DNA of 48,731 bases from Opitutus sp. GAS368. Lineage in GTDB: Bacteria > Verrucomicrobiota > Verrucomicrobiia > Opitutales > Opitutaceae. Numbering within the stretch: the first letter of the stretch is position 1; each line of letters begins with the position of its first letter. Location of the stretch: contig CAMDOO010000016.1 of NCBI GenBank assembly GCA_945903545.1, forward strand, positions 1 through 48,731, written 5' to 3'. The position numbers and the translations under genes are program-made. Of the stretch, positions 19,968 to 48,431 are shown piece by piece. The notes under the pieces were generated by a model. It had not been told where the DNA came from, searched no databases, and was given only the letters and a program-made list of their open reading frames with translations.

Positions 19968-20005
19968 CGGACGGATCCGACGGATTGGACCGATCGGTCG
20001 GATCA
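19968..20005 (-). repeat. GATCCGACC repeat bridging alaS stop and next start
   Basis: On the minus strand the alaS stop TGA is the first three bases of TGATCCGACCGATCGG, and the repeat runs on as TCCAATCCGTCGGATCCGTCCG directly into the ATG of the alkylation repair gene when read in pieces of four to six bases. The identical 16-mer overlaps the lysR stop at 45825-45840. Confidence 0.75.
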
Positions 20006-22729
20006 GGGGAGAAGCATGACCTCGGCAAGCTTGGTCGCGTCCTTGCCCCCGCCCATGGCGAAGTCGGGTTTGCCGCCGCCCTTGCCGCCGAGCTTGGCGC
20101 TGAGTTCCTGCACGAGCTTGCCGGCTTGGAAACCGGCCTGGTTGGCGGCCGGGGAGCAATAGGCGACGAGGGACGGGCGGTCGTTGAGGACCGCGCCGAG
20201 CGTGACCACGCCCTCGCCGCCGAGCTTGGCGAGGATCTGGGAGCCGAGGGAGCGGAGCGCCTCGGGGGTGTCGGCGGGGACGACGGCGGAGACGAACTTG
20301 AGGCCCTCGCGCGTCACGGCCTTGGCCGCGAGCTCGTCGGCGAGGCCGGAGGCGGCCTTTTGCTCGAAGACCTTCAGCTTGCGCTCGGTCTCCTTCTGGT
20401 GGGCGAGGAGGGCCTCGAGCTTCTTGGCGACGTCAAGCGGGCCGGCGGAGAGGTGGGCGCTGACCGCGGCGAGGGCGGCCTCGCGGGCGGTGATGAATTC
20501 AAGGGCGGCCTGGCCGGCGACGGCCTCGATGCGGCGGGTGCCGGCGGCGATGGCGCTCTCGGCGGTGATCTTGACGAACCCGATCTCACCGGCGGTGGCG
20601 ACGTGGGTGCCGCCGCAGAGCTCGCGGCTGAAGCCGCCGATGTCGACGACACGCACGATGCGGCCGTATTTCTCGCCGAAGAAGGCGAGGGTGCCCTCAG
20701 GCTTCTGGTCGAACTCGGTCTCGTAGGACTCGACCTTGGCGTTGTCGATCACGCGCTCGTTCACGAGCTGCTCGATCTCGAGGAGTTGGGCGTGGGTGAC
20801 GGCCTCGAAGTGCGAGAAATCGAAGCGCAGGCGCTCCGGCGTCTTGTGCGTGCCGGCCTGGCGGACGTGCGTGCCGAGGACCTTCCGCAACGCCCAGTGG
20901 AGAAGGTGGGTCGCGGAGTGGTGGCGGGAGATCGCGCGGCGGCGGCCGGCGTCGACAGCCAGCTCCGCTGGCTGTGATTTCAAATTTGAAATTTGAGATT
21001 TGAGATCGTCGGCCCCGCCGACCTTGTGCAGAAACCGGCCCGATTTGTCCTTCACCGTGTCAACAATGGGGAAGAGCTGGTCGTTGATCAGGGCATTGCC
21101 GGCGTCGCCGGCCTGGCCGCCCATCTCGGCGTAGAAGGGGGTTTGGTCGAAGACCAGGAAGGTGTCCTTGGCGGTCTTCACCACCTCGATGAGCTTGGCG
21201 TGGCTCGTGAGCTGGCTGTAGCCGAGGAAGTTTGTCGCCTTCTGGTCGGTGGCGGCGTCGCCCTCGGTGGCGGCGACGATGATTTCCTTCTTCTGGGAGG
21301 CGCGGCCGCGCTCGCGCTGCTTTTCCATCTCGGCCTCGAAGCCGGCGGCGTCGACCGTGAGCCCGCGCTCGGTCGCGAGCAGCTGGGTCATGTCGAGCGG
21401 GAAGCCGAAGGTGTCGTAGAGCTGGAAAGCTTGGGCGCCGCTGACGACCTTCGAGCTCGGGAAGGAGTCGAGGCCGGCCTGGAATTGGCTGAGGCCCTTC
21501 TCCAGCGTCCGGCCGAAGCTTTCCTCCTCGGACTTGATCACGCGCTGGATGATCGACTGCTGCTGCTTGAGCTCGGGAAAGACATCTCCGAGTGACTCGA
21601 TGACGGGGGCAACGAGCTGCGAGAAATCGCCAACCTTCAGGCCGATCTTTGTCCCGTACAAAATGCCGCGGCGAAGAATGCGGCGGATGACGTAGTTGCG
21701 GCCCTCGTTGCCGGGGAGGATGCCGTCGGCGATGGCGCAGCTGACGCAGCGGGCGTGGTCGGCGAGGACGCGGAAGGCGATGTCGGTGTTCTCCTGCTCG
21801 GTCAGGCCCTCGCGCTTCGTGGGGACGGTGCGCTGGTAGATCTTGCCGGAGAGGGCGGCGATCCGCGTGAAGAGGGGAGTGAAGATGTCGGCGTCGTAGT
21901 TGGACGGCTCGGCGGTGAAGTCGGTGAAGCCCTTCGTGGAGCCGTAAATGCCGGCGACGCGCTCGAATCCCATGCCGGTGTCGATGTGCTTGGCGGCAAG
22001 GGGAGAGAAGGTGCCGTCGGCGTTGGCGTTGAACTGGATGAAGACGTGGTTCCAGATCTCGATGCAGCGCGGGCTGGAGGAGTTCACGCCCTTGCGTCCG
22101 GCGACCTCGTCGTCGGACGGGAGCAGGTTGAAGTGGATCTCGGAGCACGGGCCGCAGGGGCCGGTGTCACCCATCATCCAGAAATTATCCTTCTTGTTGC
22201 CGTGGACGATGTGGATGGCGGGATCCAGGCCCTCCTTTTTGAAGATCCCGGCCCAGATGTCGTAGGCCTCCTGATCAAAGTCGGCCGGGTCACCCTTGGA
22301 CTTGTCGGGCGAGTAGACCGTGGCGAAAAGCCGCTTCGGCGGGATACCCCAGACCTTGGTGATGAGTTCCCAGCCCCAGGTGACGGACTCCTTCTTGAAG
22401 TAGTCGCCGAAGGACCAGTTGCCGAGCATCTCGAAGAGCGTGTGGTGATAGGTATCGAAGCCGACGTCCTCGAGGTCGTTGTGCTTGCCGCCGGCGCGGA
22501 TGCATTTCTGGGTGTCGGCGGCGCGGGTGTCCTTGGCGGGGCGGGCGCCGGCCCACGTGGTGACTTCGGCCGCGCGGTCGCCGAGGAAGATCGGCACGAA
22601 CTGGTTCATCCCGGCGTTGGTGAAGAGCAGGCCGGGGGAATCCGGCAGCAGAGAGGCCGAGGGCACGATGGTGTGGCCCTGTTTGGCAAAGAAATCGAGG
22701 AAGCTCTGGCGGATCTCGGCGGAGGTCAT
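20003..22729 (-). CDS. alaS: Alanyl-tRNA synthetase
   Basis: AlaRS, 908 residues, charges tRNA-Ala and edits mischarged Ser/Gly. The N-terminal class II core starts MTSAEIRQSFLDFFAKQGH and has FTNAGMNQFVPIFLG and DTGPCGPCSEIHF. The editing domain has HHSATHLLH near residue 602 and CGGTH near 705. The C-terminal part holds the coiled coil and C-Ala-like glycine-rich end. ATG 22729 gives the standard N-terminus. Unusual: residues about 575-585 (KSQISNLKSQ) are encoded by a dispersed AT-rich repeat at 20976-21007, next to a hairpin at 20955-20975, inserted just before the editing motif without breaking frame. leuB lies upstream, 371 bp away. Confidence 0.97.
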   Translation of the reverse strand: MTSAEIRQSFLDFFAKQGHTIVPSASLLPDSPGLLFTNAGMNQFVPIFLGDRAAEVTTWAGARPAKDTRAADTQKCIRAGGKHNDLEDVGFDTYHHTLFEMLGNWSFGDYFKKESVTWGWELITKVWGIPPKRLFATVYSPDKSKGDPADFDQEAYDIWAGIFKKEGLDPAIHIVHGNKKDNFWMMGDTGPCGPCSEIHFNLLPSDDEVAGRKGVNSSSPRCIEIWNHVFIQFNANADGTFSPLAAKHIDTGMGFERVAGIYGSTKGFTDFTAEPSNYDADIFTPLFTRIAALSGKIYQRTVPTKREGLTEQENTDIAFRVLADHARCVSCAIADGILPGNEGRNYVIRRILRRGILYGTKIGLKVGDFSQLVAPVIESLGDVFPELKQQQSIIQRVIKSEEESFGRTLEKGLSQFQAGLDSFPSSKVVSGAQAFQLYDTFGFPLDMTQLLATERGLTVDAAGFEAEMEKQRERGRASQKKEIIVAATEGDAATDQKATNFLGYSQLTSHAKLIEVVKTAKDTFLVFDQTPFYAEMGGQAGDAGNALINDQLFPIVDTVKDKSGRFLHKVGGADDLKSQISNLKSQPAELAVDAGRRRAISRHHSATHLLHWALRKVLGTHVRQAGTHKTPERLRFDFSHFEAVTHAQLLEIEQLVNERVIDNAKVESYETEFDQKPEGTLAFFGEKYGRIVRVVDIGGFSRELCGGTHVATAGEIGFVKITAESAIAAGTRRIEAVAGQAALEFITAREAALAAVSAHLSAGPLDVAKKLEALLAHQKETERKLKVFEQKAASGLADELAAKAVTREGLKFVSAVVPADTPEALRSLGSQILAKLGGEGVVTLGAVLNDRPSLVAYCSPAANQAGFQAGKLVQELSAKLGGKGGGKPDFAMGGGKDATKLAEVMLLP
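20955..21007. repeat. Repeat insertion inside alaS
   Basis: A hairpin ACAGCCAG/CTGGCTGT (20955-20975) is followed by an AT-rich block containing the perfect palindrome ATTTCAAATTTGAAAT (20977-20992) and direct repeats of ATTTGAGA. In the alaS frame it encodes KSQISNLKSQ. The sharp drop in GC inside a conserved gene marks it as inserted. Confidence 0.75.
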
Positions 22730-35981: not shown

Positions 35982-36030
35982 CCGGCTTTTTCCGCCCACC
36001 GCCCTCGGTCCACCGTCCACCGCCTACCGC

Positions 36031-48340: not shown

Positions 48341-48345
48341 TCCCA

Positions 48346-48431
48346 GTAGCGAGTAGTGGGTAGCGAGTAGCGAGCATCACACGCGACCGCACCTCCGACC
48401 TACTCGTTACCCACTACCCGCTACTCACTAC
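48346..48431. repeat. Inverted arrays of GTAGYGR heptamers between leuC and leuD
   Basis: The left arm (48346-48373) is four tandem heptamers GTAGCGA, GTAGTGG, GTAGCGA, GTAGCGA. The right arm (48400-48431) is the inverse array: GTAGTGA, GTAGCGG, GTAGTGG, GTAACGA and a partial unit. The arms form a long stem with a few transition mismatches. It lies between two genes whose products form one enzyme and may affect their relative expression. Confidence 0.75.

Follow-up and report, generated by a model that had tools for sequence, protein, structure and literature searches.

The STRR repeats of cyanobacteria are dispersed tandem heptanucleotides. A case from Calothrix has been mentioned alongside the GGGNATC heptamer repeats of Xanthomonas and Nostoc, which are dispersed and mostly non-coding and prefer four units, with G-quadruplex formation offered as the reason (PMC4692102). 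The TAACTGA direct repeats of Beggiatoaceae, cyanobacteria and Bacteroidetes have a patchy distribution across phyla, and their in-gene copies are mostly located at protein ends (PMC4679880). Rickettsia palindromic elements form several families of approximately 150 bp that encode a conserved peptide and are found in frame in unrelated metabolic genes (reviewed in PMC10969869), while the PARCEL repeat coding elements consist of 25-residue repeats in long tracts, often in membrane proteins (PMC2996958). Dispersed heptamer arrays with a preference for four units (Xanthomonas, Nostoc) as well as selfish in-frame inserts (Rickettsia) are already known.

Here we describe a family of arrays of the heptamer ATYTSAR, one copy of which lies in the alanyl-tRNA synthetase (AlaRS) gene alaS of a 48,731-nucleotide stretch of bacterial DNA (the whole analysed stretch, hereafter the window). 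It resembles the STRR repeats in that both are dispersed tandem heptanucleotides. Like the GGGNATC arrays, the ATYTSAR arrays have a period of exactly 7 bp, are dispersed, lie mainly outside genes and prefer four units; unlike them, they lack G-tracts (the unit is without any run of G), have many copies in frame within genes and carry hairpins at their edges. As there are no G-tracts in ATYTSAR, the G-quadruplex reason for four units cannot hold. With the TAACTGA repeats they have in common that they are 7-bp direct repeats, patchy across phyla, in which one strand gives a heptapeptide repeat while the other has stops in all frames (PMC4679880), but they differ in the degeneracy of the unit at three positions and in being located inside conserved domains of housekeeping enzymes. 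Similar to the Rickettsia elements, they occur in frame in many unrelated genes (15 in-gene arrays), although they are 30-bp tandem arrays without a long conserved sequence, and the units found in a given slot differ between genera. The parallel with PARCEL elements is that of a palindromic repeat DNA coding for an amphipathic peptide in distant taxa (PMC2996958); the ATYTSAR arrays, however, are patches of 10 codons and not long tracts of 25-residue repeats. A literature search with the exact array sequence and peptide strings found no paper, nor did we come across any account of heptamer patches that recur at specific slots and are accompanied by hairpins.

Results

The array within alaS

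The product of the host gene (Table 1) contains the Pfam domains PF01411 (tRNA-synt_2c, E 2.9e-174), PF07973 (tRNA_SAD) and PF02272 (DHHA1), and its reading frame stays open across the heptamer array. Array and hairpin are both translated in frame, giving DLKSQISNLKSQPAELAV some 20 residues ahead of H604xxxH608, and the arm of the hairpin distal to the array consists of native codons for LAV. A first-pass annotation of the DNA had claimed an in-frame, repeat-derived block at this place, and this was borne out. It had seen the repeat as a palindrome, which is indeed present, but more fully the sequence is a tandem array of 7-bp units; the neighbouring hairpin that it described exists as well, but has no fixed sequence and is missing from the array-bearing alaS of a second genome of the same genus (G001). 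The chance expectation for the array motif, taken from the shuffled window, was 0 matches, and a chance palindrome is ruled out by genome counts together with reversed-pattern controls.

Table 1. Position of the array and its neighbouring features at the alaS locus of the window
Feature	Position	Strand	Description
alaS, alanyl-tRNA synthetase, host gene	20003..22729	minus	908 aa from ATG
Heptamer array (ATYTSAR)4-AT, ATTTCAAATTTGAAATTTGAGATTTGAGAT	20977..21006		four 7-bp units plus AT, 30 bp, 10 codons; codes for about residues 575-585 (DLKSQISNLKS)
Perfect palindrome ATTTCAAATTTGAAAT	20977..20992		made by array units 1-2
Hairpin ACAGCCAGC-TCC-GCTGGCTGT, 3-nt loop	20955..20975		1 bp from the alaS array

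In an AlphaFold model of the AlaRS (mean pLDDT 74.8, 18 sequences), the array peptide is placed in a loop between the predicted strands 566-570 and 587-592, before the helix with H604xxxH608. This loop varies in length among all AlaRS examined. The block is repeat-derived, as first proposed, but in a slot of variable length the array may replace residues as well as add them. Among approximately 30 aligned AlaRS, the ATYTSAR array was present only in the genome holding the window (G000) and in G001, whose AlaRS is 91% identical and carries the orthologous array LKSQISDFKS, while the other genera lack it and differ in loop sequence and length. The block in alaS is almost certainly a non-native, repeat-derived heptamer array read in frame, and it predates the split between G000 and G001 and has been inherited since.

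The ATYTSAR family in the genome and beyond

The G000 assembly (3.08 Mb, 122 contigs) contained 159 and 161 matches to the motif on its two strands with up to three mismatches, and, for three units plus AT, 125 exact matches on each strand. The reversed-pattern control gave 0 in both cases. Since matches overlap inside one array, the number of arrays is lower than that of matches. The claim that the repeat is dispersed was therefore confirmed, with dozens of other sites in G000, including in-frame copies in many housekeeping genes. A sample of 1.23 Mb of G000 stretches, of which the first 0.83 Mb were picked largely for matches so that counts per Mb do not represent densities, yielded 53 ATYTSAR arrays. 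With one mismatch per unit allowed (n = 54), arrays of 2, 3, 4, 5, and 6 units were seen 3, 7, 32, 11, and 1 times, respectively, i.e., four units in 32/54, compared with 27/68 of the exact runs. In IUPAC letters ATYTSARAT is its own reverse complement, with the S base giving the orientation, and all eight Y/S/R combinations are present among the units. The order C then G was found for 31 pairs of adjacent S bases and the order G then C for 10, and the arrays accordingly lean towards whole inverted repeats. Conservation between copies extends no further than two bases into the flanks.

When the same 1.23 Mb were scanned for short arrays of any period, period 7 gave 49 (0 in shuffles; the array of the window scored 17), and each of the other periods from 4 to 15 gave at most 16. 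Besides ATYTSAR, the scan recovered unrelated heptamers (e.g., GTTGAAR, GTGACRR, ATSGGAG, and AATCCGC). Further heptamer families were located in called genes of G000: CTCTGTC-like (L131:4203-4275), GATSGGA (L098:2567-2597), and CGTCACY (L137:6634-6663). Elsewhere in the window, the array AGTAGCGAGTAGTGGGTAGCGAGTAGCGAG is followed about 26 bp on by its inverted form CTACTCGTTACCCACTACCCG (48345-48420, no gene called), and a degenerate C-rich heptamer array, CCGCCCACCGCCCTCGGTCCACCGTCCACCGCCTACCGC (35992-36030), over which no gene was called, stands directly before a possible ATG.

Among the matches listed, the 30-bp pattern was found in Planctomycetes, Verrucomicrobia, Acidobacteria, Bacteroidetes, Chloroflexi, Nitrospirae, cyanobacteria, and candidate phyla, in genomes with a G+C content of 32-72%. 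Within the bacterial family of G000, three-unit matches were patchy (125 in G000, 45 in G024, 32 in G001, 7 in another genome of the genus, and 0 in most genera). In some loci from other phyla (L231, L147, and others), arrays of ATTTCGG, a sister unit, lie alongside, or else several ATYTSAR arrays are separated by only a few bases, which suggests diversification of unit types at a single site.

Arrays inside genes

Gene positions were obtained with a purpose-made simple gene caller (coding fraction 0.875). Despite this high coding fraction, 34 of the 53 arrays were intergenic, an over-representation outside genes, while 4 were located at gene ends and 15 within genes. All 15 in-gene arrays were in frame, and 14 of them had four units, in comparison with 18/36 outside genes (Fisher p 0.004). 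Nearly all hosts carry recognised domains, and based on Pfam and NCBIfam they were assigned to alaS, hemF, tex, an RsmB/F-like methyltransferase, a menE-like ligase, an olefin-synthesis-like acyl-CoA ligase (hereafter oleC), rlmD, a methyltransferase, sufD, mutS, recD2, purD, an ABC-F-like ATPase, and a TPR protein, leaving one without assignment. As 7 is not a multiple of 3, the three frames of one strand all give the same heptapeptide, ISNLKSQ or near, and this, together with a length of 30 bp or 10 codons, makes four-unit arrays tolerable in genes. In mutS and purD the array takes the place of native residues, and the net change in length is small or nil; for purD, the same-genus genome G002 carries the family-typical EGGRFGASG where G000 has the array.

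Most of the in-gene arrays that could be aligned were common to G000 and G001. An additional GTTGAAR array in the RsmB/F-like gene of G000 is missing in G001, and the hemF slot is occupied by ATYTSAR in G000 and by a GTTYTGR-type array in G001. No clean empty site was seen at base resolution, and no target duplication was recognised at the arrays. Orthologous arrays differed at 19/87 Y and R positions and at 7/192 framework positions (flanks 18%), a comparison in which the framework was ascertained as the G000 consensus, roughly halving its expected differences. The low divergence of the framework is suggestive, and only that, of selection on the DNA motif as opposed to neutrality.

Hairpins at array edges

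Stems of at least 7 bp starting 0-3 bp from an array edge were present at 16/134 flanks in G000 and G001, compared with 64/4000 random positions (1.6%, p 6e-10). For heptamers other than ATYTSAR, stems of at least 8 bp were found at 4/64 flanks in G000 (p 2e-4) and at 6/76 flanks in its relatives (p 8e-6), the latter set including any ATYTSAR arrays of the relatives. Array loci from other phyla had no hairpin excess (2/244 flanks). A hairpin that is a fixed part of the repeat can be rejected, as its arms are different each time and loci from other phyla do not show the link. In mutS, a hairpin accompanies the array in G000, G001, G002, and G006, its two arms having changed in concert (CAGGAGCTG/CAGCTCCTG; CATGAGCTG/CAGCTCATG; CAGGAGTTC/GAACTCCTG), and this hairpin is missing from array-free relatives. 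In alaS, sufD, and rlmD the array-side arm was plausibly copied anew from the native flank. This need not hold for every array, as both arms in mutS and in the ligase gene lie on codons that array-free relatives also possess.

Other heptamers in the same slots

The slots that hold arrays in G000 were occupied by different heptamers in other genera: GTCAGCN in alaS (G017), TTGGTCA in sufD (G039), and TTCAACY (G006), CTTGGAA (G042), or an AATCSAR-type array (G022) in hemF. Weaker heptamers were seen in the hemF slot of G003 and G023, and the hemF loop is about 10 residues shorter in most array-free genomes. In mutS, where the slot changes little in length, the arrays of G000, G001, and G002 are of ATYTSAR type and those of G005 and G006 consist of CTCTCAR. 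The oleC slot has arrays of several unit types in five genomes of other genera. Considering six genes in other-genus genomes, 12/22 period-7 arrays fell in the slots while 0.94 were expected (binomial p 1.6e-11, a value that overstates independence because the genomes are related); the control lags 5, 8, 10, and 11 gave none. The diversity of units shows that, despite this kinship, several separate events took place. An assembly artefact is unlikely, as same-slot heptamer arrays are also present in the single-contig genomes G005, G006, and G022. In G012, the 3' part of the acyl-CoA-ligase gene (L413) contains four heptamer arrays in about 60 codons, a second hot slot of this gene.

Discussion

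The arrays described here are dispersed, centre on four units, stand in frame within genes, recur in the same slots with a change of unit and have hairpins at their edges, and their presence in the same slots of related bacteria suggests that some process is writing short repeats into the coding sequence. The reading that we prefer, to which as a whole we assign a probability of roughly 45%, is that alaS carries one member of a dispersed heptanucleotide-array family written as patches. Such patches would arise where the DNA is broken or a fork has stalled, through error-prone synthesis with template switching, in which fold-back copying of the flank would generate the hairpin and iterated 7-nt synthesis the array. 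AlaRS would gain nothing from them, and purifying selection would spare only the in-frame copies in tolerant loops. Ku had no match in G000, G001, G002, or G024, thus classical non-homologous end joining is ruled out as the joiner. The main gap in this explanation is the recurrence of one degenerate unit within and across genomes, as neither local slippage nor fold-back alone accounts for ATYTSAR recurring at dozens of sites and across phyla; the missing hairpin link in other phyla and the lower divergence of framework than of Y/R positions also speak against it. A more far-reaching version is conceivable, if doubtful: the bacterial family may have a DNA-end or gap-healing activity that writes about four heptamers from a limited repertoire plus a fold-back copy of the flank, and repeatedly rewrites the same tolerant slots of essential genes, whose heptamer would switch between species as in hemF of G000 and G001.

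The arrays could instead be functional DNA sites, i.e., four overlapping near-palindromic 9-bp ATYTSARAT sequences bound by a putative chromosomal protein, kept by selection and tolerated in genes. The self-complementarity of the unit except for its central S, the bias in the order of adjacent S bases (31 vs. 10), the constrained framework and the four-unit mode would all fit such sites, but we regard them as unlikely, given the patchy distribution in the family (125 matches in G000, 32 and 7 in the rest of the genus, and 0 in most genera) and the non-palindromic heptamers that occupy the same slots in other genera. There is likewise little probability that a minute mobile element, moved by a putative trans-acting enzyme (cf. 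REP sequences and RAYT transposases), inserts beside hairpins: a fixed 30-bp mode, dispersal, lineage-specific bursts and a hairpin at the array edge are what such an element could produce, and in-frame copies are known for the Rickettsia palindromic elements (PMC10969869), yet many unrelated heptamers share the slots, target duplications were not recognised and the edge hairpins have no common sequence from site to site.

Ordinary replication slippage of local 7-mers, with the slots as the sole places that tolerate indels, appears improbable. Heptameric repeats are over-represented in bacteria, slippage has been proposed for them (PMC4692102), and the slots are variable loops; the units, however, are not local, since the same degenerate unit turns up dozens of times and also in many phyla, and array length centres on four units without decay. 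That the peptide is native to AlaRS and AT-rich by coincidence is, although the slot varies in length in all AlaRS examined, exceedingly improbable and ruled out by the AlaRS alignment, since only G000 and G001 have the peptide, the DNA repeat itself exists at many other sites, and the same peptide encoded by other DNA in many AlaRS, which the first-pass annotation had named as the refuting observation, was not found.

An AT-rich heptamer with the same preference for four units, itself present in genomes of many phyla, means that the number four has a cause other than the G-quadruplex. The in-frame patches at fixed slots of alaS, hemF, mutS, and other genes represent new protein sequence that comes from neither point mutation nor ordinary transposition. 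The pairing of array and hairpin could give searches for the responsible polymerase or element a concrete signature to work with, and peptides like ISNLKSQ in predicted proteins become recognisable as repeat-derived.
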